Position numbers and translations under genes: made by a program
DNA from: Sporichthya polymorpha DSM 43042
GTDB taxonomy: Bacteria; Actinomycetota; Actinomycetes; Sporichthyales; Sporichthyaceae
Direction: 5' to 3'
Assembly (NCBI RefSeq): GCF_000384115.1
Contig: NZ_KB913029.1
Span: 1,956,907 to 2,020,906 of the forward strand
Length of the DNA: 64,000 bases
In this document: in pieces, positions 47,204 to 63,784 of the stretch
How the letters are laid out: the number at the start of each line of letters is the position of its first letter
Position numbering within the stretch: position 1 is the first letter of the stretch
The notes under the pieces: model-generated
Databases searched by the model: none
What the model saw: only the letters and a program-made list of their open reading frames with translations
Told to the model about the DNA's origin: nothing

Positions 47204-47569
47204 GTGACTCTCGCGCCCAACCCGTACGCCGCCCGGTGCCCGAGCCGGCAGGTGCTCGACCGCGTCGGTGACCGGTGGACGATCCTGATTCTGCGCTCGC
47301 TCGCGGGTGGCCCCCGCCGCTTCACCGAGCTCGCCCGCGAGATCGAGGGCATCAGTCAGAAGATGCTCACCCAGACCCTCCGCGGCCTGGAACGCGACGG
47401 CCTGATCACCCGCACGGTGACCCCGACCGTCCCCGTCCGCGTCGACTACGAGCTCACCGACCTCGGTTGCTCCCTCGGCGAACCGATTGCCGCCCTCGAA
47501 CGCTGGGCCGTCGACCACATGGGGGAGGTCCTCGACGCCCGCGACCGCTACGACGCCCGGGAGGCGTGA
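47204..47569 (+). CDS. HxlR family regulator (QorR-like)
   Basis: A 121-residue winged helix protein ([27 protein letters not shown], then [19 protein letters not shown]). Cys12 in the N-terminal arm is placed like the redox-sensing Cys of QorR, YodB and HypR, so oxidation or quinone adduction probably releases DNA. Divergent from the quinone reductase gene. Confidence 0.93.
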
Positions 47570-47572
47570 ACG

Positions 47573-47636
47573 AGGCATCCCAAATGCAACAGCAGAGGCG
47601 GACGAGGTGGCGACGGCGCCTCACCAGTTGCATTAG
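47573..47636. repeat. Left part of a long palindrome interrupted by the IS
   Basis: AGGCATCCCAAATGCAAC (47573-47590) would pair with GTTGCA (47627-47632) plus TTAGGGATGCCT (49258-49269) after removal of the insertion: 17 of 18 bp match. An inner stem GAGGCG/CGCCTC (47595-47600 and 47617-47622) closes the loop. It lies just after hxlR and was probably its terminator or a palindromic element. Confidence 0.75.
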
Positions 47637-49257
47637 CCTCGACATTTCGCGTGTGAGCGGTTGAGTTCGGCGCGTTAAACACGGAAGTGCCTGTCTGGCA
47701 CGGGATTCTGGGCTTGTCGAAGGTCCAAGATCGCCGAGCCGGAAGGCACTCCGTAGGTGAAGGGTAGCCGGGTTCGTTCTGTGCCCCGTGTTGAGGCTGG
47801 CGGCGAGTCGCTGATCTCTTCAGCGGGTGGGGCGTTGCTTTTGAAGACCGCGGTGGTCAGCGGCTTGGCCGGTGCCCTGTCCCGGGGGTTGGCGCCGTGG
47901 CGGGCGCACCGGGCGGTGCACGACCCAGGTAAGACGGTGCTCGATCTGGTGGTCGCGATCGCGTTGGGTGGGGACTGTCTGGCCGATCTGGCGTTGGTGC
48001 GCGCGCAGCCGGAGCTGTTCGGCCCGGTGGCTTCGGACCCGACGGTCAGCCGACTTATCGAAACCCTGGCCGCAGATCCGGACACGGCCAAAGCCACACT
48101 CGGCGCGATCCGTGCCGCCCGCGCGCAGGCCCGGGCGTGGGTGTGGTCACGGGTCGATCCGTGGGCTGGTCAGGACCGCCCGGTGCTGGATCTGGACGCC
48201 ACGCTGGTCGGGGCGCATTCGGAGAAGGAAGGAGCGGCGCCGACCTTCAAGCGCGGGTTCGGGTTCCACCCGCTCCTGGCCTTCGCCGATCACGGCCCGA
48301 CCGGAACCGGCGAGCCGTTGGCCGCGCTGCTGCGCCCCGGCAGTGCGAATGCCAACAACGCCGCCGATCAGATCGCAGTCCTCGATGCCGCACTCGCCCA
48401 ACTGCCCGAAGCGGTGCGGGGCGGGGTGCTGGTGCGCGCCGATAGCGCGGGCGGGGTCAAGGACTTGCTGAACCACGTGCATGAGCTCGGCCTGGAGTTC
48501 TCGGTCGGGATCGCCGCCCGTCAACCGGTGCTCGATGCCCTCGCGGTCCTACCACGCCAGGCTTGGCGCGCCGCCCTCGATGCTGACGGGTGCCCGCGCC
48601 CGGGCGCGCAGGTCGCCGAACTGACCCGCTGGCTGCCGGCCTCCTTCACCGGATGGCCGCCCGGCATGCGGGTGATCGCCCGTCGCGAGGAGCCCCACGT
48701 CGGTGCGCAGCTGCGGATCACCGACGCGGACGGCTGGCGCATCACTGTGTTCGCCACCAACACCCGCGGCTCTCGTCTGGCCGATCTCGAAGTCCGACAC
48801 CGGTTACGGGCCCGGGCCGAGGACCGCGTCCGGACGCTGAAAGACACCGGCGCCACCAACCTGCCCTTGCACTCGTTCACCAAGAACGAGCTCTGGCTCG
48901 AACTCGCCCAGCTGGCCACCGAGCTGTTGGTCTGGACCCAGCTGCTGGCCTGGCCCACCCACGCGGCCCGCCGCTGGGAACCCAAACGTCTTCGACTACG
49001 CCTGCTCAGCGTCGCCGCCCGCGTGATCACCACCGGCCGTCGGCGCACCCTGCGCCTGAACTCCCGATGGCCCTGGGCCGATCTGATCACCGGCGGCCAC
49101 CAACGACTGACCGCCCTGACCTGAACCCAGATCCCGTCGCGACGAACACCCCGGAGAACCGGCGAACACAACGCCGGCGGACAACAGTGCCCAGGACTCC
49201 GACCAACGCCATCGACTACCCGCTCGCTGGGAACCGGCTGGTCACGAAAGATCGAGG
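47637..49257 (+). mobile_element. IS1380-family insertion sequence, intact
   Basis: 1621 bp. Ends are imperfect inverted repeats: CCTCGACATTTCG (47637-47649) and the complement of CGAAAGATCGAGG (49245-49257). TTAG flanks both ends (47633-47636 and 49258-49261), a 4-bp target duplication as expected for IS1380. It carries one full-length transposase gene, so it may be active. Confidence 0.88.
47757..49124 (+). CDS. IS1380 family transposase
   Basis: A 455-residue DDE transposase. Catalytic aspartates are Asp147 in PVLDLDATLV and Asp229 in VLVRADSAGG; the Glu is probably in RARAEDRVRTLKDTGATNLP. The GTG start lies 120 bp inside the left end. The frame is uninterrupted. Catalyses cut-and-paste movement of the element. 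Confidence 0.95.
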   Translation: MKGSRVRSVPRVEAGGESLISSAGGALLLKTAVVSGLAGALSRGLAPWRAHRAVHDPGKTVLDLVVAIALGGDCLADLALVRAQPELFGPVASDPTVSRLIETLAADPDTAKATLGAIRAARAQARAWVWSRVDPWAGQDRPVLDLDATLVGAHSEKEGAAPTFKRGFGFHPLLAFADHGPTGTGEPLAALLRPGSANANNAADQIAVLDAALAQLPEAVRGGVLVRADSAGGVKDLLNHVHELGLEFSVGIAARQPVLDALAVLPRQAWRAALDADGCPRPGAQVAELTRWLPASFTGWPPGMRVIARREEPHVGAQLRITDADGWRITVFATNTRGSRLADLEVRHRLRARAEDRVRTLKDTGATNLPLHSFTKNELWLELAQLATELLVWTQLLAWPTHAARRWEPKRLRLRLLSVAARVITTGRRRTLRLNSRWPWADLITGGHQRLTALT

Positions 49258-49364
49258 TTAGGGATGCCTGGTCAACGGGGAGTTCCCCGGTCGGTCGGCA
49301 ACCGGGTTCCGGCGCCGCGGTGTGGCGGACGCCGGTGTGGATCCGGCCGAGGTCGGGCCTCAGG

Positions 49365-49405
49365 AAAAAAGTCCCAGGCCGCGCATTGCGCTGACCTGGG
49401 ACTTT
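49365..49405 (-). terminator. Terminator of tRNA-Arg
   Basis: On the minus strand an 11-bp stem (AAAGTCCCAGG / CCTGGGACTTT; 49395-49405 with 49368-49378), 16-nt loop, then a run of six T (49370 to 49365). It begins 5 bp after the tRNA. Confidence 0.9.
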
Positions 49406-49409
49406 GCTG

Positions 49410-49482
49410 CGCGCCCGAAGGGACTCGAACCCCTAACCTTCTGATCCGTAGTCAGATGCTCTATCCGTTGAGCTACGGGCGC
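49410..49482 (-). tRNA. tRNA-Arg (anticodon ACG)
   Basis: 73-nt cloverleaf: acceptor stem GCGCCCG/CGGGCGC, D arm with AGCTCAACGGATAGAGC, anticodon stem TCTGA/TCAGA with loop CTACGGA (anticodon ACG), T arm GGGGTTCGAGTCCCT. CCA is not encoded. ACG is normally edited to ICG and reads CGU, CGC and CGA codons. Confidence 0.97.
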
Positions 49483-49633
49483 AGGCCCCCGAAAGCGGGC
49501 CGTCGGGAAGTGTAGCGGCCGGGTCGCGGCGGGTCGAAACGAGATCCCGGACCCGGGTTCCGCCGGGGCCGGTCCCTTCGCCACGATGTACCGACTGACC
49601 TGGGCAGATGGCGGATCGGCGAAGGTGGGCGGG

Positions 49634-50053
49634 ATGGCGTTGCGGGCGGCGGATGTGGTGGCGATCGCAGTCGGGGCGGCGAGCGGCTGGGCGGTCGAGG
49701 AGCTCGCCCGCAAGCGGTTCCCGAACGCGCGGGCGGACCTCGGGGCGGCGGGCCTGGTCACCGCGGCCGCGGTCTACCCCGCCACGCGGCGGGGCCGCCG
49801 GTTGAGCCTGGCCGCCGCCCGGGAGATCGGGTCGGTCGCCGCGGCGACGGGTGTGGTCATGAAGGCCCGAGAGCGCGGCGGCACTCCCGCCCGGGCCCTG
49901 ATCGCCGCCGGGTGGGCCGCGCACGCCCTCTTCGACGCCCGCCACGACTCCGGCTCCGGCGGCGGGCTGCCCCGCTGGTACCCCGCCCTGTGCGCCGGCT
50001 ACGACCTCGCCTTCGCGGCCGCGCTGCTGCGGCCGGGACCCGCCGGGGACTAG
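49634..50053 (+). CDS. Small hydrophobic protein, unknown function
   Basis: A 139-residue protein from ATG 49634 (AAGGTGGGCGGG upstream); ATG 49586 would add 16 residues. Hydrophobic segments at about 5-22 and 95-115, and WYPALCAGYDLAFAAALL near the end. HALFDARHDSG is the most conserved-looking part. Three or four TMs are possible. The stop overlaps the convergent zinc-ribbon gene by 4 bp. Family not recognised. Confidence 0.65.
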   Translation: MALRAADVVAIAVGAASGWAVEELARKRFPNARADLGAAGLVTAAAVYPATRRGRRLSLAAAREIGSVAAATGVVMKARERGGTPARALIAAGWAAHALFDARHDSGSGGGLPRWYPALCAGYDLAFAAALLRPGPAGD

Positions 50054-51087
50054 AACCCGACGACATCCTTCAGCCAGGGCCAGGCCAGGCCCAGGATGCC
50101 GAGCGCCGCGAGCGGCACGCCGATCTTCCAGGCGCTGACCGGCGTCTGTTCGGCGATGGAGCCGTCGATACCGCTCACGAGGAGTTGCCGGACCGAGTCG
50201 CCGTGGCGGGTCGTCACCAGGTAGATCGGAATGAGTAGGTGCCGGTACGTCTCGCCGCTCGACCGGCACACCGGCGAGTCCAGGTACGGGGTGTGCTTCT
50301 CGTACCGGTACTCGCTCTCGATCGCTGCCTTCGCCATCTCTTCTCCGCGCTTGCGCAGTGCGGCGTGGATCAGGTTCCGGATCGTCGGCAGGTCGAGGTC
50401 GTAGGACTCGCAGAAGGCGCCCGCCAGATACTCGGGCCGGTACGGCACCACCAGGTCCAGCGGCCATGGTCGTGAGCGATCGAGCCACTTCTGATCGACG
50501 AGGCTTCCGGCCGGGATGACGACGTCCCGCACGAATCCTCCGACGCGTCCGGCTTCAGCCACCAGGAAGGTGGTGCGAATCGCGGTGTAGTCGACATCCA
50601 GCCGGGCGTCGACACTCAGCACCGGTACATAGACCCGGGCGTAATGCGTGGCCTTCGTGTGGAGCCTCATCCCCCGAGGGGCGAACCAGGCGCGGGCGAT
50701 CCAATGACGGACCGCGCGGTGCGCTGCCGCGCTGTCGATGCGGAACGGGATCACGCCGTCGATCGGGAACCGACCGCCCGATTCGTGCACATCCGCGAGA
50801 GCCACCGGAGCGGCGCAGAACGGACAGTGGCTGGCCCGCAACGTGCCCACGTATGCGGCGCCGCCTCCACAGTGCGGGCACATCAGTTGGTGGTCGAGTT
50901 CGTCGGGGATCTCCGGCGCCCAGTTCGGATTCTCGGCGAACACCGGGCGGAGGGCTCGGCGCCGGACCGTCCCCTCCCGAGGCTCGACCGGCGTCAACCG
51001 ACCACACGAAGCGCAGGCCATGCCGCCCGGCTGATAGCTCGTCGGCGCGCCGCAGCTCCGGCAGGTGAAAGCAACCGCCGAGCCCAC
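50050..51087 (-). CDS. Zinc-ribbon membrane protein A (ESX-operon paralogue)
   Basis: A 345-residue protein, last gene of the eccC operon. Two zinc ribbons at the N-terminus (CRSCG...CASCG, then CPHCGG...CPFC), a conserved middle domain with PIDGVIPF, AWFAP, YVPVLSVDA and RPEYLAG, the YRHLLIPIYLV motif and a C-terminal TM (VPLAALGILGLAWPWL). GTG 51087 is 2 nt after the upstream stop. The family is often annotated as TFIIB-type zinc ribbon or PriA-like, but no helicase motif is present. Probably a membrane scaffold that works with the SPFH protein. Confidence 0.8.
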   Translation of the reverse strand: MGSAVAFTCRSCGAPTSYQPGGMACASCGRLTPVEPREGTVRRRALRPVFAENPNWAPEIPDELDHQLMCPHCGGGAAYVGTLRASHCPFCAAPVALADVHESGGRFPIDGVIPFRIDSAAAHRAVRHWIARAWFAPRGMRLHTKATHYARVYVPVLSVDARLDVDYTAIRTTFLVAEAGRVGGFVRDVVIPAGSLVDQKWLDRSRPWPLDLVVPYRPEYLAGAFCESYDLDLPTIRNLIHAALRKRGEEMAKAAIESEYRYEKHTPYLDSPVCRSSGETYRHLLIPIYLVTTRHGDSVRQLLVSGIDGSIAEQTPVSAWKIGVPLAALGILGLAWPWLKDVVGF

Positions 51088-51089
51088 GG

Positions 51090-52280
51090 CTACTTGCCCG
51101 AGTAGTAGACGCCCAACCCGACCCCGACGACGATCAGGGCCGCGATCACCGCGAGGGTGATCTTGATCCAGCTGTAGGGTCGCTCGCCCTGGACCTCGCC
51201 GGTGACGCCGTTGACGAAGACCTGATACGGCTTCGCGTGGAACATCACGACGAGCAGGAAGATCGGCAGCAGCAGGTGCCGGTAGGTCTGCCGGCTCCAG
51301 GTCGTGTCGGTGCGGTGGATGCGCTGGTGGTCGCCGCCGATGTCGCGACGGATCGCGTACGCGATGTCGTTGTTCATCCGCTGCACGGCCTCGCTGTGGC
51401 AGACGTCGAGCTCCTTCTCGTAGAAGCGCGACATCGAACCCGCGAGGTACTCGGGGCGGAACGCGACGGCCGCCTGCGTCGGCCACGGCTCCAGGGCCTG
51501 GAGGCGCTCGGGGTCGAGGGAGTGCTCGGCGCCGATCGCGACGTCGTCGAACGGGACGTCGACCGCACCCGAGACGTGCCGCCACCGGATCCTGGTCTCG
51601 GTCCGCTGGTTCTGCCCGGACCCGACGGTGACGGTGTAGTTGTCGCCGCGCTGCCCCTCGTACTCGGTGTAGGTCTGCGCGTCGAAGGTGAAGAACGGCA
51701 GGTAGACCCCGGAGAACGAACCGGTCTTCGAGTACTTCTTGAAGTCGTTCGGGGCGAACCAGCGGCCGTTGATCCACTCCTTGACCTTCTCCTCGGCCGC
51801 CATGGTGTCGATGCCGAACGGGACGACACCGTCCACCGGAAGGCGGTTCGGCGCCTCGTGGATGTCGCTGCGCTGAACCGGCGAGGCGCAGAACGGGCAC
51901 CGGGTTGCGGTGAGGGAGCCGACGAAGCCGATGTGCCCGTTGCAGTTCGGGCAGACCAGTTCCTTCTGCGGGCCGGAGGTGACGGCCTGCGCCGAGGGGG
52001 GCTTGCGCTGGTCCTCGAGGGTGGCGAGCAGGTCCCGCTCGGCCGGCTTCTCCTCCGCGGCCTCGATCGGTCGCTCGGAACCGCAGCTCGGGCACTTCAT
52101 GCCCCGCGTGGGCGGGTGGAAGACCAGCTGACCGCCGCAGTTGACGCACGCGAAGTGGACGGTGGTCAGGTCCGGTGTCGTCCCGTCCCCCAGTCGCGGA
52201 GGCGTCGGCATCGGGGGCGGGCCGGGGATCGGCGGGGGGCCGGGGTTGTGCGGCGGGTCGGCGGGCGTTTCAGGGTGCAT
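51090..52280 (-). CDS. Zinc-ribbon membrane protein B (ESX-operon paralogue)
   Basis: A 396-residue protein: Pro-rich N-terminus (about 1-30), zinc ribbon 1 (CVNCGG...CPSCG), zinc ribbon 2 (CPNCNG...CPFC), core motifs PVDGVVPFGID, RWFAPNDF, YLPFFTFDA, FRPEYLAG, then TYRHLLLPIFLL, NGVTGEVQGERPYSW and a C-terminal TM (LAVIAALIVVGVGLGVYY). ATG overlaps the stop of paralogue C by 11 bp, so translation is coupled. The domain before the TM would be cytoplasmic or membrane-apposed. Confidence 0.85.
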   Translation of the reverse strand: MHPETPADPPHNPGPPPIPGPPPMPTPPRLGDGTTPDLTTVHFACVNCGGQLVFHPPTRGMKCPSCGSERPIEAAEEKPAERDLLATLEDQRKPPSAQAVTSGPQKELVCPNCNGHIGFVGSLTATRCPFCASPVQRSDIHEAPNRLPVDGVVPFGIDTMAAEEKVKEWINGRWFAPNDFKKYSKTGSFSGVYLPFFTFDAQTYTEYEGQRGDNYTVTVGSGQNQRTETRIRWRHVSGAVDVPFDDVAIGAEHSLDPERLQALEPWPTQAAVAFRPEYLAGSMSRFYEKELDVCHSEAVQRMNNDIAYAIRRDIGGDHQRIHRTDTTWSRQTYRHLLLPIFLLVVMFHAKPYQVFVNGVTGEVQGERPYSWIKITLAVIAALIVVGVGLGVYYSGK

Positions 52281-53973
52281 CGGCCAGGGCCTGCTTTCGT
52301 CGTTCCAGGTAGGCGTCGGCGTAATCGTCGCTGAACCGGTCGATCGTTGCTTGCGGGAGGCCTGCGCACGCTTCGGTGAGGTCCCGCGCGTCCGCCGCCG
52401 TGTACTGCTTGGCGGCGATCTTCGCCCCGGCCAGCGCGACGTTCGCGCGGCACCACTGGCGGGCGGGACTGCCGATGCCCAGCGCGAGCAACGCTCGCCG
52501 GGCGGTGGTGATCTCCTCGTCGGCGAAGATCTCGCGCGCGATGGTCCGGCGCTCGTCGGGGCTCAGCGCGGCGCATGCGCGCACGTCCGGAAAGAACGTG
52601 TCCGGGGTGCGCAGCCGATAGACCTCGACCGCCTCGCGGCACTCCTCCGGCGTGAAAGTCCTTGTCGCGTCCTGGGCCTCCGCGTCGGCGCGCAGCAGGG
52701 CCTCGCGTTCCTGAATACTCACCTGCGCCGGCAAATCCGAGGTGTCCGAAATCGAAACCGTGCTCGACTCGTATTGCCAGGCGTAGACGCCGACGCCAGT
52801 GAGGGCAAGGACGACCGCCAGCACGACGGACCCGATCTTCGCCCAGCTGTACGGCCGCTTCCCGTGAACCTCGCCGGTGACGCCGTTGACAGCGACCTGG
52901 TAGGGCTTCGACCGGTAGGTCACGGTGAGGAGGTAGACCGGCAGCAGCAGGTGCCGGAACGTCTCGTTGCGCCACTTCGTCTCTTTGCTGTCGATCTCCT
53001 GGTGATCCCCGCCGATCTGGCGCTTGATGACGGTGTCGATGCGCTCGTTCATGCGGTCGCGCGCCTCGACCTGGCAGGCCTGGAGGCTGCGGTCGTAGCG
53101 GCGGGCGGTGTAGCCGGCGAGGTACTCCGGCCGGAACCCGATCGCGTTCTCGCTCGGCCACGGCTCCAGGTCGTGCATCCGGTCGCGGTTCACCGAACTC
53201 TCTGCGGCGACGGGCACGTCGTCGAGTTGGAGTTCCAGCGTCCCCGATACCGAGGTCCAGTCGATGTAGTGCTCGGTCTCTCGTTTTCCGTCGCGGTAGA
53301 CGGTCCGCGTCTCATTCGTCCCGCGTCTGCCCGTCCACTTGGTGACGGTGTAGGCGTCGAAGGTGAAGAACGGCAGGTAGACACCGGCGAACGATCCGAG
53401 GGAGGCGTACTTCTTGAACGCGCGGGGCGCCCACTTCCGCTTGGACATCCACGCGCGGACGTCCCGCTCGGCGCCGGCGATGTCGAGACCGAAGGGGACG
53501 ATGCCGTCGACCGGGAATCGGTCGGGCGAAGTGTGGATGTCCTCGCGGGTCACCGGGCGCGCGCAGAACGGGCAGCGGGTGGCGGTCAGGGTGCCGACGA
53601 AGGCCACGGCGCCGTGGCAGTTCGGGCAGACGAGTTCCCGGTCCAGCTCGCGGGCCGGGGTGGGGGAGTTGGTGTCGCCGCCCTCCGCGGCGCGGGGGTC
53701 GGCGAGAGCGGTCCGGAGGTCGTGCTCCTCCCCGACGTCCCCGCCGTCGGGGATGGGGAACAGACCGGAGCAGGACAGGCAGGTGACCGAGGTGGTGCGC
53801 GGGGTGAACTGCACCGCCCCGCCGCAGCTCGGGCACTCCAGCCGGGCCGCCGCCCCGGGGAGGGGCGGCGGCTCCGGTGACTCCGGAGGGGCCGTCTCGG
53901 TCGGAGTTGCCGTCGCCGTCGGCAACGGCGGGGGAGTCGAGGCCGCGACGTCAGGATCGAGTGTGTCGCTCAC
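52270..53973 (-). CDS. Zinc-ribbon membrane protein C with C-terminal extension
   Basis: A 567-residue paralogue of protein B. After a Thr/Pro-rich start come two zinc ribbons (CPSCGG...CLSC and CPNCHG...CPFC), core motifs PVDGIVPFGLD, KWAPRAF, YLPFFTFDA, FRPEYLAG, FRHLLLPVYLL and NGVTGEVHGKRPYSW. A TM (SVVLAVVLALTGVGVYAW) is followed by an extra domain of about 160 residues with four cysteines (EECREAV, ACAALS, WCRAN, EACAG). That tail is absent from A, B and D and probably faces outside. GTG start 33 bp after the SPFH gene. Confidence 0.85.
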   Translation of the reverse strand: MSDTLDPDVAASTPPPLPTATATPTETAPPESPEPPPLPGAAARLECPSCGGAVQFTPRTTSVTCLSCSGLFPIPDGGDVGEEHDLRTALADPRAAEGGDTNSPTPARELDRELVCPNCHGAVAFVGTLTATRCPFCARPVTREDIHTSPDRFPVDGIVPFGLDIAGAERDVRAWMSKRKWAPRAFKKYASLGSFAGVYLPFFTFDAYTVTKWTGRRGTNETRTVYRDGKRETEHYIDWTSVSGTLELQLDDVPVAAESSVNRDRMHDLEPWPSENAIGFRPEYLAGYTARRYDRSLQACQVEARDRMNERIDTVIKRQIGGDHQEIDSKETKWRNETFRHLLLPVYLLTVTYRSKPYQVAVNGVTGEVHGKRPYSWAKIGSVVLAVVLALTGVGVYAWQYESSTVSISDTSDLPAQVSIQEREALLRADAEAQDATRTFTPEECREAVEVYRLRTPDTFFPDVRACAALSPDERRTIAREIFADEEITTARRALLALGIGSPARQWCRANVALAGAKIAAKQYTAADARDLTEACAGLPQATIDRFSDDYADAYLERRKQALADAP

Positions 53974-54006
53974 AGTCGCCCCTTCCGGTCGTGGCCTGAC
54001 TTCCCC

Positions 54007-55185
54007 TCAGTTCTGCGGCGGTGCCGGGGGTGCCGGGGGCGCCGGCGGCGCCGGGGGAGCGGGCGGCGCCGGGGGCGGAGGCGGCGGCGGGGGCGTCGCG
54101 AACAGCGGCGCGAGCTGCGCCACCGAGGACGCGGCGGCCCAGCCGGCCATCCCGGCGGACCAGACCAGCGTCTGCCCGTTGATCTGCCCGGCCTGGGCAG
54201 CCTGCTGCAGTTGCTGCAGGTTGTAGGGCCCGGTCGCCTGGCCGTTCATCTCGACGTGGAACATCGGCGAGACCAGCGGCGGCGGGGTGGCCCCGAGGGC
54301 CTGATTGGCGGCGATGGTCTGCCCGAGCTGACCTCCGAGGCCGAGCCCGATGCCGGCACCGACCATCGCGCCGGCCGCACCGCCGGGGTTCTCCGCGGCG
54401 GCGAGCGTCGCGTCCGCCGCGCGGACCTGCTGCAGGCGGCCGACGTCGCCGACGTTCTGCACGTAGCCGCGGGTCTCGACACCGCGGGCGACACCGGCGG
54501 TGAGGGCCGCGGTGACCTCCTCCGGCAGCGAGACGTTCATGGCGATCGACTCGATGGCGAGGCCGTACTCGTCGTCCACGCGCTCGGCGACCAGGGCGCG
54601 CAGCTGATCGGCGATCTCCGCGTTCTTGCCCTGCAGCTCGAGCGCGCCGTAGCCGGAGCCGGTGAGCAGGTCGGCGAACGCGGTCGCGATCAGACGGCGG
54701 AGCAGCTCCGTCAGCTCGTCGAGCTCGACGGCGGAGTCGGTGCCGATGACCTCACGGAGGAAGATCTCCGGGTCGGCGATCCGGACGACGCACAGCCCGT
54801 TCGCCCGGATCGGGATCATCGAGAAGTCGGGGTCCCGGATCGTGATCGGCTGCGGCGTGCCCCAGCGCAGGTCGGTGACCGGGCGGGTGTTGATGAAGTA
54901 CACCTCGCTGCGGAACGGGCTCTCGAACCCGTACTTCCAGCCCTGCAGCGTCGCGAGGATCGGCAGCGCCTCGGTGGTCAGCTTGTAGTGGCCGGGCTCG
55001 AACTTGTCGGCGAGCTGGCCGCGGTAGACGAACACCGCCTTCTGGCCCTCGCGGACGATCAGCTCCGCGCCGTTCTTGATCTCGTTGTTGTAGCGGGGGA
55101 ACCGCCAGGCCAAGGTCGTTCGTGAGTCGTCGATCCATTCGATGATGTCAACGAGCTCACCCTTGAGCTTGTCGATCAATCCCAT
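54007..55185 (-). CDS. SPFH/band-7 protein with GYF_2 domain (YdjI-like)
   Basis: A 392-residue SPFH-domain scaffold of the YdjI/virion-core type: GAELIVREGQKAVFVYRGQLADKFEPGHY and FRSEVYFINTRPVTDLRWGTP mark the SPFH core (about 30-230). A Gly-rich stretch (AMVGAGIGLGLGG) and a GYF_2/DUF4339 domain (FHVEMNGQATGPYNLQQL, about 305-360) follow, then an APP-repeat tail. In B. subtilis YdjI forms membrane foci with the zinc-ribbon protein YdjG and PspA. Here it lies among four zinc-ribbon paralogues behind eccC, so a membrane-domain scaffold for ESX is a reasonable hypothesis. Confidence 0.88.
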   Translation of the reverse strand: MGLIDKLKGELVDIIEWIDDSRTTLAWRFPRYNNEIKNGAELIVREGQKAVFVYRGQLADKFEPGHYKLTTEALPILATLQGWKYGFESPFRSEVYFINTRPVTDLRWGTPQPITIRDPDFSMIPIRANGLCVVRIADPEIFLREVIGTDSAVELDELTELLRRLIATAFADLLTGSGYGALELQGKNAEIADQLRALVAERVDDEYGLAIESIAMNVSLPEEVTAALTAGVARGVETRGYVQNVGDVGRLQQVRAADATLAAAENPGGAAGAMVGAGIGLGLGGQLGQTIAANQALGATPPPLVSPMFHVEMNGQATGPYNLQQLQQAAQAGQINGQTLVWSAGMAGWAAASSVAQLAPLFATPPPPPPPPAPPAPPAPPAPPAPPAPPQN

Positions 55186-55231
55186 GTCGTCTCCCCTGCT
55201 CGCTGGTCGGTACGGTGCCGATTCTGCTTGA

Positions 55232-56509
55232 TCAGCGCAAAGGCCACGTGACCAACCACAACAACCCGAGCACCGCGCCGGCGGCGACGAAGACGGACGC
55301 GAAGATCAGGACGACCAGCACCAGGGCGTACAGCAGGCCGAGCAGGCTCCCCGGGGTCTCGACGATGGCGACACCGGTCGCTCCGTCGACCCACACCTCG
55401 CGCTGCTGACCTCGGACCTCCACCGACGCCAAGTACACCGGCACCAGCACCAACCGGTACCGCCAGTTCGTCGCCCGAGCGTCGAAGGTACTGAACTCGT
55501 GCCGGTCGCCCCCCGTCTCGAGCTTGACGGCGGACCGGACCTCGTCGTGGATCCGTTGGTCCGCCATGCGCCGGTACGCCGAGAAGGAGCCCTGCGGCAG
55601 GTAGGCCTCCAGACCCGCGAGGTAGTCCCGACCGAAAGCGACGGCTGCGTTCGGGCTGAAGATCGGCTCGAAGGTGTTGACGCGCCGCCACTTCCCCGGG
55701 ATTGGCAGGGGGACGCGGCTGACCTGCCCGCGAGGGATTGCCTCCTCGACCTTGGGGTCGGTGAAGAACGACACCTCGACCGGGAGTTCCAGGGTGCCGG
55801 AGACGTCCTCCCAGGTCGTGCTCGTGCTGTGGTCGTCACGGTCCCTGTGAGTTCGGCCGACTCGGCCCGCGTACGTGGTGATCGTGTCCGCCGAGAACTG
55901 GATCACCGGCAAGTAGTGCAGCGTCAACTCCGCCTTGCGGTACAGGGCGCGGTTCTTCGGCGCACACCGCACCAGTGAGCACTGTTCCAGCATGCGCTCG
56001 CGTGCGGTGTCCTCGTCGACGAGCAGCGGGAGGACACCGTCGATCCGCCACCACTGGGCGCCGGGCAGGTCGGCGCGCACGAGCGAAGCTCCGCAGGAGG
56101 CGCAGGCGGTCGCCACCTTCTGCCCGCCAACGTTCTCCGCTGTCGTGAGCGGATTCGCGGCGCAGGCCGGACAGCGGAGCTCGGGCATCCGCGTCGGGAC
56201 GACGTCGCTTTCCTCGTCGGGCGGAAGCTCCCGGTCCGCGACCGCCGTCTCCTCGACCGCGATCGGGTCGGTGTGTCCGCAGCTGATGCACCGCAGTTGA
56301 GGTTCCGACTGCCGGAACAACGACGCGAACTCGGCGGCCGGGTCGCGGTCGGAGAACTTGTCCGCTGCGACGTCCTGCCAGCCGGTCGCCCGGCCGGGGT
56401 TGTACCGGAGGGGTCCGCCGCAGTTCGAGCACGGCAGCGCCACGAAGGCCGCGGCCGGAGGCGCAATGGGCTCGCTGGTCTGCGGCTCGCTGGGAACGTC
56501 CGTGGTCAC
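55232..56509 (-). CDS. Zinc-ribbon membrane protein D (ESX-operon paralogue)
   Basis: A 425-residue, most diverged paralogue and first after eccC (36-bp gap, GTG start, AAGGAG upstream). Zinc ribbons CSNCGG...CISCG and CPACA...CASCG. Core motifs are recognisable: RIDGVLPLLVD, YLPVIQFSAD, FGRDYLAGLE, YRLVLVPVYLA. The C-terminus has about two TM segments (LLYALVLVVLIFASVFVAAGAVLGLLWLV) rather than one. It may link EccC to the SPFH protein, by inference from gene order. Confidence 0.8.
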   Translation of the reverse strand: MTTDVPSEPQTSEPIAPPAAAFVALPCSNCGGPLRYNPGRATGWQDVAADKFSDRDPAAEFASLFRQSEPQLRCISCGHTDPIAVEETAVADRELPPDEESDVVPTRMPELRCPACAANPLTTAENVGGQKVATACASCGASLVRADLPGAQWWRIDGVLPLLVDEDTARERMLEQCSLVRCAPKNRALYRKAELTLHYLPVIQFSADTITTYAGRVGRTHRDRDDHSTSTTWEDVSGTLELPVEVSFFTDPKVEEAIPRGQVSRVPLPIPGKWRRVNTFEPIFSPNAAVAFGRDYLAGLEAYLPQGSFSAYRRMADQRIHDEVRSAVKLETGGDRHEFSTFDARATNWRYRLVLVPVYLASVEVRGQQREVWVDGATGVAIVETPGSLLGLLYALVLVVLIFASVFVAAGAVLGLLWLVTWPLR

Positions 56510-56545
56510 CGCTGCTCCTTGCTCGTGATCGGTCGGGAGTTGAGC

Positions 56546-59500
56546 TCACACGTGCGGTGGGGTCCAGGCGATCTGGACGACTTCGGTGCCACGGTCGCGG
56601 GTGACGAGCTGGCCGCGGCCGGGGACGCCGGGGGCCGGGCGGGCGTTGCCGACCAGCGGGCCCTCGGCGGGGTCGCCGGCGAGGACGACGCCCGCGGCGG
56701 CGAGGTCGCGCATCGACTGGATCACCGGCTCGAACTGCGCGCGGGCCGCGCCGCCGGACCGGCGGGCGATCACGAGGTGCAGTCCGATGTCGCGAGCCTG
56801 CGGCAGGAGCTCCACCAGCGGCGCCAGCGGTGAACCCGTGGATCCGGTCACGAGCTCGTAGTCGTCGACCAGCAGGTAGACGTCCTTGCCGGTCCACCAC
56901 GAGCGTTCGCGCAACTGCGTGGGCGTCACGTCCGGACCAGGCAGGCGGCCCTTCAGGTATTGCGCGAGTTCGCCGACGGCGGGTCCCGCACCCGCGGCGC
57001 CGGTCATGTACTCGAACAGGTAGTCGGCCGGCACCTCGCCGAGCAGCGCTCGCCGGTAGTCGACGATGGCCAACTGGGCCTGGTCCGAGCCGAAGCGGCG
57101 CATCACCTCATGCGCGTACGTGCGCAGCAGGGCGCTCTTCCCGGATCCCCCGTCGCCGTAGACCATCAGCAGCGGCTCCGCGACCGGATCCAGTCCGACC
57201 GGGGCGAGGTCCCGCTCGTTGACGCCGAGCAGCAACCGCGGGTCGTCCGCCGCGACCGCGGCCCGCACCTCGTCGATCCCGATCTGCTCCGGCAGCAGCC
57301 GCAGCTTCGGGCCGGACGTGGGTGCCGCCGCGGCGACGGCCTGCACGAGGTGCGCGACGCCGGCGCCGAGGGTGCCCGGCTCGTGGTCCCCGTCGAGTCG
57401 CGGAAGCGCCGCGAGGAAGTGGAACTTGCCCGGCAGAAGGCCGCGGCCGGGGCGGGCGGTGGGCACGTTCGCGGCGACCTTGCGGTCGATCATCGAGTCC
57501 TGCGGGTCACCCAGGCGGAGTTCGAGCTGGGTGCCGAACAGGTCCCGGATGGTGGAGCGGAAGTCGTTCCAGCGGGTCGCGCCGACGATCAGGTGCACAC
57601 CGAAGGTGAGGCCCCGTGAGGCCAGTTCGGTGAGCTCCAGCTCCAGAGCCTCGAAGTCGGCCCGGATCGTCGACCAGCCGTCGACGATAACGAAAACGTC
57701 GCCGTAGCCGTCGTCGGCCGTGCCGGCCGCCTTCCGGGCCCGGTAGGTCTCGATGGAGTCGATGGCGTTGGCGCGGAAGTACGCCTCGCGGGCGCTGGTG
57801 ATTCCCTGCACCTCGGCGACGATGCGGCGCACGACGTCGGGCTCGCTGCGGGTGGCGACGCCTGCGACGTGCGGCAGGTCGGTCAGCGAGGTGAAGGTGC
57901 CACCCCCGAAGTCGAGCACGTAGCACTGGACCTCGGCCGGCGTCCGGGTCAACGCCAGGGAGGCGACGAACGTACGCAGCAGCGTGGACTTGCCACTGCG
58001 CGGACCGCCGACGATCGCGGCGTGCCCGGCGGCGCCACCCAGGTCGAGCACGAGGGTGTCACGGCGCTGCAGGGCCGGCTTGTCGACGATGCCAAGCGGG
58101 ACGACCAGCGAACCCCGCCCACGCCACGACGGACTGACCAGCCCGACGCCGTCGACGACGGTCAGGTCGGTCATGAGCGAGTCGAGGGTGTCGGGCACGT
58201 CGAGCGGCGGCAGCCACACCTGGTGCGCCCGGGGCCCGCGGTCGCGCAAACGCTCGACGAGGATGTCGACCTCGCTGCGGGTCTCGGTCTCGGTGATCTC
58301 GGGCTCCGGGGCCGCCTCGAACGACTCCGCCAGCAGGACCGGGGTCGTGACGAACGGCAGGATCTGCTGCTGCGTCGCGCTGGTCGCGCGCGCGACGCGG
58401 CGCGCCGGCGGTGGGCCGGAGACGTAGGACGCGGTGAACTTGATCAGCGTCTCGGGGTCGGGCTTGAGATAGCCGAGGCCCGGGACCGCGGGCAGTGTGT
58501 AGGCCCAGTCCACGCCGATGACGGCGCGAGACTCGTTGGCGGAGAACGTCCGGAGACCGACGCGGTAGGACAGGTGGGAGTCGAGGCCGCGGAGCTTGCC
58601 CTCCTCCAAGCGCTGCGTCGCGAGCAACAGGTGGATGGACATGGACCGACCCAACCGACCGATGGCAACGAACAGTTCGGCGAAGTCGGGCTTGGCCGCG
58701 AGGAGTTCGGTGAACTCGTCGACGACGATGAACAGGCTCGGCAACGGAGCGAGATCTGCCCCCGCGAGGCGCGCCTTCTCGTAGTCCTTCACCGAGGCGA
58801 AGTTGCCGGCTTCCCGCAGCAGTTCCTGACGGCGCACCATTTCGCCGGCGAGGGCGTCCTGCATCCGGTCGACGAGCGTGATCTCGTCCGCAAGGTTCGT
58901 GATGACCGCCGAGACGTGCGGAAGCTCCGACATCCCGGCGAACGTCGCCCCGCCCTTGAAGTCGACGAGAATCAGGTTGAGCGCGTCGGGTGAGTGGGTC
59001 GCGACCAAGCCGAGCACCAGCGTCCGCAGGAACTCCGACTTTCCGGAACCCGTTGCTCCGATCACCAGACCGTGGGGACCCATGCCCTGTTGGGCGGATT
59101 CCTTGATGTCCATCGCGACGGGGGCGCCGTCCTCGGTGTTACCGATCGGCACGCGCAGACGATCGCGGTTGGGCCGCGGCCGCCAGGCGGTGTCGATGTC
59201 GAAGTCGCGGACGTCGCCGAGGTTGAGCAGATCGAACAGGTCGCGGACGCCCGCTCCGGCCTCGCCGGCGCGCTTGATCGGCGCGGTGGTCCAGAGGGGG
59301 GCGAGCCGCCGGGCGACGGCCTCGGCCTCGGTGGCGGACAGCTGGTCGGCCCAGATCGTCACCGGGTCGCTGCGCAGCATGGCCGCTTCGACGATGACGC
59401 GTCCGTCTTGCCGCTGACGCTCCGTCACACCGAGACGGAGGAGGTGGGGGTCCGTGACCTCGGTCCAGGTCTCGGGCAGGTCCAGCACCGTGACGCCGCT

Positions 59501-60508
59501 GACGCCGTCGAGTGTGACGATCGGGTTGACCGGCGGAATGTGCCCGCCGTCGACGACGATCAGGACATGCGGGGTGGCCGGGGCGCCACCGGTCTGGGCG
59601 CCGAAGCGGGGCCGTTCGGCCAGATCGGCCGGCAACAGCGGAATCAGGTCCTCGAGGGAGTCCGAGACCTGGCGGGCCGGGCCGGCGCCGTCACGCTCGC
59701 GGGGGCTGGCGGCGTGCGGCAGCCACTTGACCCACTCCCACTCCGCGCGGGCCTCGCTGCCGGCAACGACGGCGATCACGAGGTGGTCCGGAGAGTGGAA
59801 CGTGGCGGCGTGGGTGACGATCGCTCGTGCGAGCGCACGGACGGAATCGACCTGGTCGCCGGTGACCTCGACCTTGGCGAAGCCGCGGAGGGGGAAGGCG
59901 GTCGGGAGATCGGGCTGGATCCGGTGCGTGGCGAGCAGTCGGTGAAGAGCCGAAGCGGTGACGGGGTCGAGCGTGTCGAGGGGCGCCGTCTCCGGCGTCA
60001 CGAGGTTGACCGACAGCGGCTGCGGTGCCACGCCGTAACGGATGGTCAGAAAGTCCTCGGATGAGGGCGCGCGTTCCCAGACGCGGCCACCCTCGGCGGC
60101 GATCGCCGGGAGGTGAGCGGGGTCCGGGTACACCCAGGTCAGGGCGTCCCGCTGCCGGTCGGCGGCCTCGCGTGCGGTCTTACGGATCCCAGCCAGGTAG
60201 CGCAGGTACTCCCGGCGTTGGTCACTGACCTTCGACGTCCACTGGGTGCGCTGGCGGATGGCGCTGACCGCGACGAAGCCCAGGGACGCGACGAGCATCA
60301 TCCCGGCGGTGATGAATCCCTTCGCGCCCGGTTGGGAGGTCGCGATGAACACGATCGACCCGACGCTCGCCAGCATCGGGAGGACGTTCATCATCAGCGA
60401 GCCTGCGCCCTCGGCAGGAATCAATTCGGGCGGCGACTGCAGCGTGATGTTCCCCTGCGGCACCGTCGGTGGCTCGATCCGGGCGGTCTGACGAAGGGTC
60501 GTCGGCAC
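56546..60508 (-). CDS. eccC: Type VII secretion ATPase EccC
   Basis: A 1320-residue FtsK/SpoIIIE-type motor, fused (EccCa+EccCb). Two N-terminal TMs (about 40-57 and 63-83), then three ATPase domains. D1 has Walker A GATGSGKS (484-491) and Walker B FIVVDEFTE. D2 has GGPRSGKS (834-841) but VFVIVDGW, a Gly instead of catalytic Glu, as expected for an inactive regulatory domain. D3 has GDGGSGKS (1118-1125). GTG start. It drives export of WXG100 substrates. Heads the minus-strand operon with the zinc-ribbon/SPFH genes. Confidence 0.95.
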   Translation of the reverse strand: MPTTLRQTARIEPPTVPQGNITLQSPPELIPAEGAGSLMMNVLPMLASVGSIVFIATSQPGAKGFITAGMMLVASLGFVAVSAIRQRTQWTSKVSDQRREYLRYLAGIRKTAREAADRQRDALTWVYPDPAHLPAIAAEGGRVWERAPSSEDFLTIRYGVAPQPLSVNLVTPETAPLDTLDPVTASALHRLLATHRIQPDLPTAFPLRGFAKVEVTGDQVDSVRALARAIVTHAATFHSPDHLVIAVVAGSEARAEWEWVKWLPHAASPRERDGAGPARQVSDSLEDLIPLLPADLAERPRFGAQTGGAPATPHVLIVVDGGHIPPVNPIVTLDGVSGVTVLDLPETWTEVTDPHLLRLGVTERQRQDGRVIVEAAMLRSDPVTIWADQLSATEAEAVARRLAPLWTTAPIKRAGEAGAGVRDLFDLLNLGDVRDFDIDTAWRPRPNRDRLRVPIGNTEDGAPVAMDIKESAQQGMGPHGLVIGATGSGKSEFLRTLVLGLVATHSPDALNLILVDFKGGATFAGMSELPHVSAVITNLADEITLVDRMQDALAGEMVRRQELLREAGNFASVKDYEKARLAGADLAPLPSLFIVVDEFTELLAAKPDFAELFVAIGRLGRSMSIHLLLATQRLEEGKLRGLDSHLSYRVGLRTFSANESRAVIGVDWAYTLPAVPGLGYLKPDPETLIKFTASYVSGPPPARRVARATSATQQQILPFVTTPVLLAESFEAAPEPEITETETRSEVDILVERLRDRGPRAHQVWLPPLDVPDTLDSLMTDLTVVDGVGLVSPSWRGRGSLVVPLGIVDKPALQRRDTLVLDLGGAAGHAAIVGGPRSGKSTLLRTFVASLALTRTPAEVQCYVLDFGGGTFTSLTDLPHVAGVATRSEPDVVRRIVAEVQGITSAREAYFRANAIDSIETYRARKAAGTADDGYGDVFVIVDGWSTIRADFEALELELTELASRGLTFGVHLIVGATRWNDFRSTIRDLFGTQLELRLGDPQDSMIDRKVAANVPTARPGRGLLPGKFHFLAALPRLDGDHEPGTLGAGVAHLVQAVAAAAPTSGPKLRLLPEQIGIDEVRAAVAADDPRLLLGVNERDLAPVGLDPVAEPLLMVYGDGGSGKSALLRTYAHEVMRRFGSDQAQLAIVDYRRALLGEVPADYLFEYMTGAAGAGPAVGELAQYLKGRLPGPDVTPTQLRERSWWTGKDVYLLVDDYELVTGSTGSPLAPLVELLPQARDIGLHLVIARRSGGAARAQFEPVIQSMRDLAAAGVVLAGDPAEGPLVGNARPAPGVPGRGQLVTRDRGTEVVQIAWTPPHV

Positions 60509-60673
60509 GACAGCCTCCCCGTGGCAGGTGGTTGGGGCTCGCGCGGCGGGTGTCCGGTGTGGTGCGATTACCCGCGATCACCGCATTGCTCCGGTCGGTA
60601 TCGGACCAGATGGGCCGTTTCGGTGGCAAGGGTGATCGGTCACGGATCCGTAGCCGGCGGACCAGGAGCGCCC

Positions 60674-62047
60674 ATGACGGTGACCTCGACGGAGGCCGGA
60701 CGCGTCCGCGCGACCGACACCTTCCGCCTGTCCGTCCGCGCCGCGGGCGGCCGTGCGGACGTCGTTGCCACAGCGACGACTACTCCCGCCGAACTGCTGC
60801 AGGCGTTCGACGTCGATCCGGAGCTGACGATCCTGACCCGGGCAACCGGGGCGGTCCTCGATCCGGACGTCCCGCTCGGTGCGCAGGGTGTTCGTGACGG
60901 GGACCTGCTGGCCGTGCTCGACCCGGGCGCGACCGAGTCGCACGTGACGCCCCGTCGGGTCGCGCACGCGAAGCCGGCCGGCCCGGTGGCCGTTCCGCTG
61001 GAGCTGGCGCTGTTGCCGGGCGCGCTCGCGCTGGCCGGCCTGGCCGCCGGCCTGGCCACCTTCGCCGAGACGGCGGCTCGGCTGGGCATCGGCGCCGGGC
61101 TGGTGCTCGCCGGGGCGATCGTCGCCCTCGCTCCGCGTCGGGGCCTGTTGGTGGCGGGCGCCGAGGCGCTGGGACCGGTCTTCCTGGCCGCGGCGGCGGT
61201 GGCCGTGATTCCTCGGGACGAGGCCGGTGCGGACCTGCTCGCGATCGTTGCCGCCGGCGTGGTCGCCGCTCAGGCGGCGGCGTTGCTGAGACTGATCGCG
61301 ACCCCCGCAGCGCAGCCGGCGCTGGTCGTCTGGATGTGGGCCGGCGGGGCCGTCGCGGTGACCGCCGGGGGTGTGCTGGCCGGGGGCGGCAGCCCGCGAG
61401 TCGTCTGGGCGCTGCTCGCCGTGGTTGCCGTCGGCGCGACCCGCCTGCTGCCCCGGCTCGCCGTGGACGTCCCGGACGAGCAACTGATCGACACCGAGAA
61501 GATGGCGTCGACCACCTGGTCCCTGCGCGGCAGGCTGATCACCCGCAAGGTCCGGGTCCGTACCGCCGAGGTCGAGCGGACCGTGCTGAGTGGCCGTCAT
61601 TTGCTCGACGCCGCGTCGGTGGTGGCGTCCGCGGCCGTGGGGGCGGTCGCGGTCGCGCTCGCGGTGGATCCGGTCGACGGCTGGGAGCGTTGGGCCGCTT
61701 TCGGTGCCGGTGGTCTCGCCGGGACCGCCCTCCTGCTCGGTTCCCGCGCCTACGCCGGGGGACTGCCGCGGCTCGCGCAGCGCCTCGGCGGGCTGGTGGC
61801 CGTGGCGGCCGGTGCCGGCGGAGCGCTCGCGGCTGCCTCCGACGTCGGCCGGTTGGGCGTGGCGGTCGGGTGCTTCGTGCTCGCGCTGCCGGTCGTGTTC
61901 GCGGCCGTGGCGCTCGGGCGCGGCTGGCGGACGGTGTGGTGGGCCCGACTGGGCGATCTGGCCGAGTCGTTGGCAATGGCGTCCGTCGTTCCGGTCGCGC
62001 TGCTCGCCGTCGGCACCTTTGGTCACTTCCGTCAGATGGTGTCGTGA
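60674..62047 (+). CDS. eccD: Type VII secretion integral membrane protein EccD
   Basis: A 457-residue protein: N-terminal ubiquitin-like domain (about 12-85, FRLSVRAAGGRADVVA to GDLLAVLDPG), then about ten to eleven TM helices from residue 105 to the end. RLPRLAVD-type loop (TRLLPRLAVDVPDEQL) follows TM6 as in EccD proteins. Forms the membrane channel with EccB, EccC and EccE. ATG 60674 with AGGAG at 60664-60668. Divergent from eccC across 165 bp. Confidence 0.93.
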   Translation: MTVTSTEAGRVRATDTFRLSVRAAGGRADVVATATTTPAELLQAFDVDPELTILTRATGAVLDPDVPLGAQGVRDGDLLAVLDPGATESHVTPRRVAHAKPAGPVAVPLELALLPGALALAGLAAGLATFAETAARLGIGAGLVLAGAIVALAPRRGLLVAGAEALGPVFLAAAAVAVIPRDEAGADLLAIVAAGVVAAQAAALLRLIATPAAQPALVVWMWAGGAVAVTAGGVLAGGGSPRVVWALLAVVAVGATRLLPRLAVDVPDEQLIDTEKMASTTWSLRGRLITRKVRVRTAEVERTVLSGRHLLDAASVVASAAVGAVAVALAVDPVDGWERWAAFGAGGLAGTALLLGSRAYAGGLPRLAQRLGGLVAVAAGAGGALAAASDVGRLGVAVGCFVLALPVVFAAVALGRGWRTVWWARLGDLAESLAMASVVPVALLAVGTFGHFRQMVS

Positions 62048-62065
62048 GAGGAGGGAGGGATCGGG

Positions 62066-62383
62066 ATGGTCGGCATGTCAGAAGTCAGCGCGCAGGCCGG
62101 TGCGCTGGAGAGTTCGGCGAAACTCGTGGCGGCTGCGCGAGCGGATCTGGACAAGCAGTGCGATGGCCTTCGTGAGCAACTGAGCCAGCTCAAGGACAAC
62201 TGGCGCGGGGCCGCCGCGCTCGCGTTCACCGAGCTGCTCGAGCAGTGGGAGGACCAGACCCGCCGGACGATCGCGGCCCTCGACGACTTCGAGTCCAAGC
62301 TCCGGGCCACCGATCGGGCCCACGTCCGCGTGGACCAGGAAGTGCACGACGCGGGCAAGCGGCTCAGTGCCCGTCTCGGCTGA
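62066..62383 (+). CDS. WXG100 protein 1
   Basis: A 105-residue helical hairpin protein with NWRGAAALAF (W-x-G) at the turn. Candidate ESX substrate or chaperone partner. ATG 62066 or 62075. The C-terminus is GKRLSARLG; no clear YxxxD/E secretion signal is obvious. Confidence 0.9.
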   Translation: MVGMSEVSAQAGALESSAKLVAAARADLDKQCDGLREQLSQLKDNWRGAAALAFTELLEQWEDQTRRTIAALDDFESKLRATDRAHVRVDQEVHDAGKRLSARLG

Positions 62384-62574
62384 CCGGTCGGGCGGTGCGA
62401 GGGTCTTGACCATCGCTTCACAGTTTGTCCCCAACGGCCTGATCCCATTTGGCCGATTTGGGTCTAGGGTCGTGCCGCGATCGGCAGATCGTGACCGCAG
62501 GCGCACGCTTCGTCCCCACCGAGGGTGGCCCGCACCCGAAGCGCAGCCGGGTTGATCCCACGGGAGGTGCCGGC

Positions 62575-62886
62575 ATGGCCGGTGAGATCAGCAAGCAGGA
62601 TCAGGCGCTCAACCGGGCGGCGAGTCTCGTCGCCGAAGCCCGGCAGGAGCTGGGGGGCCAGCTCCAGCAGCTGGGCGGCAAGCTGCAGGGCATCGGCTCG
62701 CAGTGGCGGGGATCGGGTGCGGCCGCGTTCACCAACGTGATGGAGCGTTGGAACGCGGACGCCCAGAAGATCATCCAGTCGCTGGAGACCTTCGAGGACA
62801 ACCTGAAGAAGTCCGAGTCGACCTACACGGCGGCGGACGACGCCCAGTCGGCGGCGTTCACCCGGCTGTCCGGACGACTGGGCTGA
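62575..62886 (+). CDS. WXG100 protein 2 (EsxB-like)
   Basis: A 103-residue WXG100 protein with QWRGSGAAAF. The C-terminal YTAADDAQSAAFTRLSGRLG contains Y-x-x-x-D, the export signal that EccC recognises on EsxB-type partners. GGGAGG precedes ATG. It shares its C-terminal RLG ending with protein 1, so the two are paralogues. A 191-bp gap upstream may hold a separate promoter. Confidence 0.93.
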   Translation: MAGEISKQDQALNRAASLVAEARQELGGQLQQLGGKLQGIGSQWRGSGAAAFTNVMERWNADAQKIIQSLETFEDNLKKSESTYTAADDAQSAAFTRLSGRLG

Positions 62887-62897
62887 GGAGAACGGTC

Positions 62898-63185
62898 ATG
62901 AGCGAGTTCAAGGTCAATTTCGGTGCCCTCGACACCGCCGCCGCCGACATCACCAGCGCCGGCAAGGCGCTCGAGTCCCGGCTGGGCGAACTGGACCGGT
63001 CGTTGGCGCCGCTGCGCTCGGACTGGACCGGCGCGGCCAGCGAGGCCTACGCCCAGTCCAAGGCCCAGTGGACGAACGCCATCAACGACATGAATCAGCT
63101 GCTCAACGACATCGGCCAGGCCGTGGCCCAGTCCGGCGGCAGCTACCAGGACATGGAGAAGTCCAACTCCACGATGTGGAGCTAG
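62898..63185 (+). CDS. WXG100 protein 3 (EsxA-like)
   Basis: A 95-residue ESAT-6-like protein with DWTGAASEAY (W-x-G) and an extended end (YQDMEKSNSTMWS). It follows protein 2 by 11 bp, the usual esxB-esxA pair order, so these two probably form the secreted heterodimer. Confidence 0.93.
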   Translation: MSEFKVNFGALDTAAADITSAGKALESRLGELDRSLAPLRSDWTGAASEAYAQSKAQWTNAINDMNQLLNDIGQAVAQSGGSYQDMEKSNSTMWS

Positions 63186-63191
63186 CTCCCC

Positions 63192-63776
63192 ATGAGCACG
63201 CCGATGACCTCACCGGGAAATCCCGGTGAGGTCCAGGTCGACGTCGAGAGTCTCGACGCCTACCTGCGTGAGGTGCTGATCCCGCTCTCCGAGCGGGCCC
63301 ACTCCGTCGCGAACAAGTTCACCGAGGTCCCGCTGTCGGTGGACATGTTCGGACCGATCCCGCATGCCAAGCAGCTCGCGGAGCGTCACAAGTGGGGATT
63401 TGACGTGTACCGCCCGACGTTGGAAGCGCTGGCCAACGACGTCGACACGCTGGTCGACAAGCTCGGCAAGGTCATCCAGACCTACCGCGACCAGGACGAC
63501 CAGGTCGGGGCGGCCCTGGCCAAGCTCGGCGCCGTCCTCTCCGGGGAGGGCGGGTACACCGCGGCCGCGACCTGGGAACGGGAGCGGGCCGAGCACGGCG
63601 GCACCCCGGCTTCGCTGCCACCGCCGCCCCTCGCCACTGCGCCGGGAGCCCCTTCCCCCACCACGGTCCAGCCGGACACCCTCCCGGAACCGGCCGCGTC
63701 GGCCGAGCCGCCGCCGGCCGCCGTGCCCGCCAAGCCCGCAGAGCCGAAGCCGTCCGGCACGGATGCGTTGAGTTAG
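63192..63776 (+). CDS. ESX-associated helical/proline-rich protein
   Basis: A 194-residue protein: residues 15-115 are helical (VDVESLDAYLREVLIPLSERAHSVANKF, later LVDKLGKVIQTYRDQDDQVGAALAKLG) and look like a long WXG/EspB-type domain without the W-x-G. Residues 125-194 are Pro/Ala/Glu-rich and disordered. The layout recalls secreted ESX-associated proteins such as EspC, EspB or PE/PPE-like partners. No family firmly recognised. It lies 6 bp after WXG100 protein 3 and 8 bp before mycP. Confidence 0.75.
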   Translation: MSTPMTSPGNPGEVQVDVESLDAYLREVLIPLSERAHSVANKFTEVPLSVDMFGPIPHAKQLAERHKWGFDVYRPTLEALANDVDTLVDKLGKVIQTYRDQDDQVGAALAKLGAVLSGEGGYTAAATWERERAEHGGTPASLPPPPLATAPGAPSPTTVQPDTLPEPAASAEPPPAAVPAKPAEPKPSGTDALS

Positions 63777-63784
63777 GAGTGAAC

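Follow-up and report, generated by a model that had tools for sequence, protein, structure and literature searches.

An SPFH-GYF gene and four zinc-ribbon paralogues beside an ESX secretion locus in Sporichthya polymorpha

In Sporichthya polymorpha DSM 43042 we analysed a window of 64,000 nucleotides (contig NZ_KB913029.1, positions 1,956,907 to 2,020,906), in which eccC, the gene of an ESX (type VII) motor ATPase, is followed by genes for an SPFH-family protein and four zinc-ribbon (ZnR) membrane proteins, named here ZnA to ZnD. Along the minus strand the order is eccC (56546-60508), ZnD (55232-56509), SPFH-GYF (54007-55185), ZnC (52270-53973), ZnB (51090-52280) and ZnA (50050-51087), with spacings of 2-46 bp or overlaps; ZnA starts with GTG 2 bp past the ZnB stop. 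Coordinates, strand, order and tight spacing of the six genes agree with the initial annotation of this stretch. A scan for minus-strand terminator-like sites between eccC and ZnA found none, such scans being weak in GC-rich DNA.

Proteins encoded behind eccC

EccC (1320 aa) was recognised by TIGR03924 (937.8 bits, 4e-282) and TIGR03925 (844.2 bits, 4e-254), far above the NCBIfam cut-offs. The SPFH protein is of the YdjI type, with a Band_7_1 domain (PF13421, 5.5e-89), a C-terminal GYF_2 domain (8e-17) and a proline tail; neither a hydrophobic segment nor a transmembrane segment (TM) was predicted in it.

The four ZnR proteins, the only ones encoded in this 5.5-Mb genome, each have one predicted C-terminal TM. 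Eight cysteines are invariant in their alignment, so that all 8 are retained despite an identity of only about 28%, and in a family alignment of 48 sequences seven of the eight zinc cysteines do not vary and the eighth hardly does. The shared motifs described initially hold in part: the cysteines are common to all four proteins, but ZnD deviates in some of the others (IDGVLPL, DYLAG, YRLVLVPVYL). Similarly, the proposed C-terminal membrane anchor was found in each protein, but ZnC is not simply tail-anchored. It continues beyond the TM for 168 aa with four cysteines (52270-52800), unlike the other members examined, the family median being 8 aa. AlphaFold2 models of ZnB (pLDDT 87.4, pTM 0.80) and ZnD (pLDDT 78.9, pTM 0.75) present their elements in the same order. 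Foldseek gave no match in the PDB at E <= 0.001, and a sequence search of the PDB returned weak zinc-ribbon matches only.

The SPFH-ZnR pair in other bacteria

When about 85,000 species genomes were scanned with the ZnR alignment, 53 named loci emerged; they belong to Nocardia, Mycobacterium, Gordonia, Tsukamurella and Propionibacterium, to many Planctomycetota and Acidobacteriota, and to one deltaproteobacterium. Where enough flanking sequence was available, most loci have one ZnR gene behind an SPFH gene, whereas for some planctomycete loci we detected no SPFH gene in the vicinity. EccC was found near ZnR in none of the 53 (flanks up to 10 kb). ZnR is encoded in 40 of 394 genomes of the class, that of the window among them, with one copy each except for the four copies in the window. 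A Band_7_1 SPFH gene is present in 30 of the other 39, in 26 cases on the same contig and less than 2 kb from ZnR. In only one of these 39 genomes does an EccC-type ATPase gene lie close to ZnR (the sister species G002, where it is EssC-like), the next nearest being, on comparison by eye, more than 100 kb away. Presence of ZnR and presence of EccC were not significantly associated across genomes (Fisher p 0.14 and 0.31).

Judged by sequence and gene order, SPFH plus one ZnR is an old, widespread two-gene unit across many phyla that resembles YdjI/YdjG. The actinobacterial versions (Nocardia, M. gordonae, M. asiaticum, Gordonia, Tsukamurella) share with the window the two genes, their order, the GYF domain and the proline tails; their ZnR is about 40-50% identical to ZnB, and the examined loci carry a single ZnR and no EccC. 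Plasmid-borne pairs occur in Tsukamurella, Paracoccus, Vibrio, Comamonas and Enterococcus. The Enterococcus locus (L125) reads SPFH-ZnR-TPM, the composition of Bacillus ydjI-ydjG-ydjH, and its ZnR is 26.6% identical to ZnB (E 2e-26). The kinship with the YdjI/YdjG pair, suggested initially, is supported by this locus and, more weakly, by the possible YpeB-like core considered below. In Paracoccus (L128) a toxic anion resistance (TelA) gene lies upstream of the pair, and in Comamonas (L126) the SPFH protein bears a helix-turn-helix in place of GYF.

The nearest relatives of the window's eccC are 60-65% identical and come from other families. In these actinobacterial ESX loci, as in the window, eccC is divergent from eccD, but neither SPFH nor ZnR genes adjoin eccC. 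The neighbourhood survey thus places SPFH and ZnB mostly away from eccC in relatives, and the view of the SPFH and ZnR genes as an ESX module, taken in the initial annotation, finds no support there. We rejected a conserved ESX-SPFH module on these counts (none of 53 loci, one of 39 genomes and that one EssC-like, none beside the closest eccC relatives).

Insertion at tRNA-Ser(gct) and history of the ZnR genes

The flanks of the locus are about 93% identical in DNA between the window and G002, and this identity breaks off at 55185, where SPFH starts, and again at 73811. At the latter position, in the continuation of the contig beyond the window (L079), begins a tRNA-Ser(gct) gene (L079:12718-12809, about 73811-73902 in window numbering), whose 3' end faces the break. 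The inserted segment comprises the ESX locus and ZnD; its part within the window is 55186-64000, and the remainder extends to about 73810, where it meets the tRNA. The distance from SPFH to tRNA-Ser is about 0.14 kb in another congener (G001), 0.3 kb in a member of another genus (G003), 10.0 kb in G002 and 18.6 kb in the window. The 18.6-kb insert, encoding ZnD, EccC, two EccD-like proteins, three WXG100 proteins, two mycosins and EccB, is absent from all three relatives. G001 and G003 have SPFH-ZnB with no secretion genes alongside, whereas the 10.0-kb insert of G002 encodes an EssC-like FtsK/SpoIIIE ATPase of 1456 aa together with a WXG100 protein (L075:12893-17263, L083:1775-2074). This ATPase is 61% identical to one that is sited elsewhere in G003. 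A gene near the G002 ATPase matches one that neighbours its orthologue in G003. Empty sites in relatives and different inserts in sister species indicate that the SPFH-ZnR dyad was there first and that secretion loci, two different ones, came later. Differing inserts at one site are most simply explained by a tRNA hotspot. tRNA-Ser(gct) forms the right border of both the window and the sister inserts and may be a hotspot for secretion islands.

ZnC, in the interval between SPFH and ZnB, and ZnA, behind ZnB, are missing at this locus in G001, G002 and G003, and none of ZnA, ZnC and ZnD was found in any other of the genomes surveyed. ZnB is 94.6% identical to its counterpart in G002 and 81.8% to that in G001, and SPFH is 98.7% identical between window and G002; the ZnC gene shares about 71% DNA identity over 0.8 kb with the ZnB gene of G002. 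Two trees, of 92 and 37 rows, unite ZnA to ZnD and the Sporichthyaceae ZnRs in one clade with supports of 97/75 and 98/90, which agrees with the local duplication proposed initially. Terminal branches are 0.05 for ZnB, 1.4-1.5 for ZnC, 3.0-3.4 for ZnA and 4.8-4.9 for ZnD. From these sequence comparisons, ZnB is the slow, vertically inherited orthologue, and ZnC, ZnA and ZnD are fast, strongly diverged members of a local clade. Duplication inside the genus Sporichthya is not rejected by the approximately unbiased test (p 0.19), though not thereby shown. We also considered that ZnA, ZnC and ZnD arrived with ESX from a donor; this was set aside since the closest eccC relatives have no adjoining ZnR and the trees point to a local clade, with some doubt left by the long branches.

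Interpretation and alternative explanations

We consider it likely that an old dyad came to stand beside a secretion island at a tRNA hotspot and that its anchor gene was then locally amplified and diverged. According to this proposal, SPFH-GYF and ZnB would form a YdjI/YdjG-type dyad of membrane scaffold and anchor that is old and was inherited vertically. In it, a soluble SPFH oligomer would be tethered at the inner membrane face by ZnB, a protein with two zinc ribbons, a possible YpeB-like core and a C-terminal TM. In Bacillus, YdjI is soluble, its localisation needs the membrane proteins YdjG and YdjH, and PspA needs YdjI (PMC8581546). By analogy, the window's SPFH would be a scaffold held by ZnB; B. 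subtilis YdjI/YdjG likewise combines a soluble Band_7_1 SPFH, dependent on a membrane partner, with an adjoining TM protein that carries two zinc ribbons at its N-terminus, and a YpeB-like core may be shared as well. Going by Bacillus, the dyad would most likely organise or protect the membrane under stress. With the ESX locus inserted between the SPFH start and the 3' end of tRNA-Ser(gct), SPFH would now follow eccC and would probably be transcribed by read-through from that gene. Copying of the anchor gene would then have given rise to ZnC, ZnA and ZnD, in which zinc ribbons and TM were kept while the remainder diverged rapidly. These three would most likely be alternative anchors or adaptors for the single SPFH scaffold, co-expressed with ESX.

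GYF domains bind proline-rich peptides, which makes a contact between the GYF domain of SPFH and the tails of ZnB and ZnC a reasonable guess; the domain probably also grips the proline tails of the anchor (PPPxP). Among SPFH C-tails, 48 of 57 contain the motif PP[PL]?[LIMV]P, and among ZnR N-tails 23 of 56 (shuffle means 5.5 and 6.2), counts which overstate the case since the sequences are related, the ZnR start codons moreover not being fixed. In the window, the motif is present in the N-tails of ZnB and ZnC, absent from ZnD and from ZnA, which has no proline N-tail, and absent from the SPFH tail, a plain proline-alanine run.

Several points weigh against this history. At the left border we found neither an attachment (att) repeat of the tRNA 3' end nor direct repeats, and we did not notice an integrase within the insert, which leaves the mechanism of insertion unproven. 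A type VII-family ATPase, of differing subfamilies, lies directly upstream of SPFH in two of the three sampled Sporichthya species, which is more than expected if this adjacency were meaningless, unless the tRNA site is a hotspot. The long branches blur the placement of ZnA and ZnD, whose joining in the trees is untrustworthy. Finally, the top structural match after re-ranking, the C-terminal domain of YpeB (5boi, Z 5.5 over 66 residues), is weak (Z < 8). It nevertheless agrees with the published description of YdjG, in which a TM and a YpeB-related domain accompany two zinc ribbons (PMC11237479).

The confidences we attach to this history and to its alternatives overlap, because the anatomy and the past of the locus fit either answer on a function in ESX secretion. 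In the alternative that we find unlikely but rate highest, the neighbourhood would be pure hitch-hiking: the tRNA-Ser hotspot takes up varied secretion islands and the ZnR expansion is drift unrelated to ESX. Both inserts end at the 3' end of tRNA-Ser(gct), the sites in G001 and G003 are ancestrally empty and the linkage is not conserved in relatives, all of which would be expected; however, it is in one and the same genome that ZnR expanded and ESX arrived, ZnD is located within the insert, flanked by eccC and SPFH, and retention of every zinc cysteine at such low identity points to retained function rather than decay.

It seems somewhat less probable to us that SPFH and ZnA to ZnD build a microdomain assembling or gating the ESX channel, the three new paralogues having become adaptors for ESX. 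ZnA, ZnC and ZnD are confined to the sole genome with ESX at this site, in a tightly spaced row on one strand behind eccC without a terminator-like site, and an ATPase of the type VII secretion system (T7SS) adjoins the dyad again in the sister species. In addition, the flotillin FloA promotes T7SS assembly in Staphylococcus aureus (PMC5718613), a case likewise combining an SPFH-family scaffold with type VII secretion. FloA, however, is a canonical membrane-bound flotillin without ZnR partner in a T7SSb context, whereas the window's SPFH is of the YdjI type. In nearly all genomes the dyad and EccC are unlinked, their presence is not associated, and SPFH and ZnB are almost identical in a species with ESX and one with an EssC-like ATPase, which argues against adaptation to a single motor. 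The gating platform of the initial annotation thus keeps the gene order of one genome and the FloA precedent on its side, but no conserved linkage. By analogy, dedication of the SPFH-ZnR set to ESX is possible. A more far-reaching version, which we regard as speculative and slightly more doubtful still, is that in Sporichthya a type VII motor twice landed beside an SPFH-ZnR scaffold and that in the ESX case the anchors became dedicated adaptors (ZnD, ZnA and ZnC, the last with a possibly outward-facing tail) bridging scaffold and channel.

Least probable in our estimate is a canonical Psp membrane-stress system, in which SPFH and ZnR would recruit PspA as in Bacillus pspA-ydjGHI. The domain pair is the same, Enterococcus has SPFH-ZnR-TPM, and the requirement of YdjI for YdjG and YdjH in membrane recruitment would fit. 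But neither TPM (YdjH) nor PspA is encoded among the genes neighbouring SPFH and ZnR, and the sole pspA gene is about 3 Mb distant. The window further differs from pspA-ydjGHI in that GYF replaces the C-terminal zinc motif of SPFH, in having four ZnR genes rather than one and in adjoining eccC.

On the preferred reading, the striking gene row consists of a membrane-stress dyad of old standing next to a secretion island that was captured, and two sister species carry different type VII loci at the same chromosomal position. Literature searches yielded no description of type VII secretion together with a YdjI-type SPFH. Should the additional anchors indeed act for ESX, they would parallel, in actinobacteria, the link between flotillin and T7SS, and three accessory genes (ZnA, ZnC and ZnD) in one species and none in its sister offer a genetically simple comparison.

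Further genes of the ESX locus and the left flank

The ESX locus reaches beyond eccC and past the end of the window, to about 73810. Divergent from eccC, the plus strand encodes an EccD-like membrane protein (60698-62047; TIGR03920, 21 bits, below cut-off) and three WXG100 proteins (62066-62383, 62575-62886 and 62889-63185), all above the PF06013 cut-off (1.7e-12, 7.9e-17 and 7.4e-21). Beyond the window follow a second EccD (L079:5434-6837; 101 bits, cut-off 94.95), EccB (135.8 bits, below the cut-off of 154) and two mycosin-like proteases (L079:2686-3930 and L079:11411-12694; 182 and 235 bits, below the cut-off of 278.75). Mycosin-like proteases and EccD-like proteins are thus both doubled in the island. 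EccE was not recognised among the genes scanned, no search having been aimed at it.

On the left, a small membrane protein encoded convergently with ZnA on the plus strand (49586-50053) belongs to the conserved flank; it is 93% identical in G002, where its gene lies directly behind ZnB. Further out, the stretch 47563-49405 is not present in G002; it carries a transposase-like open reading frame (47757-49124) and adjoins a tRNA-Arg(acg) gene (49409-49482).

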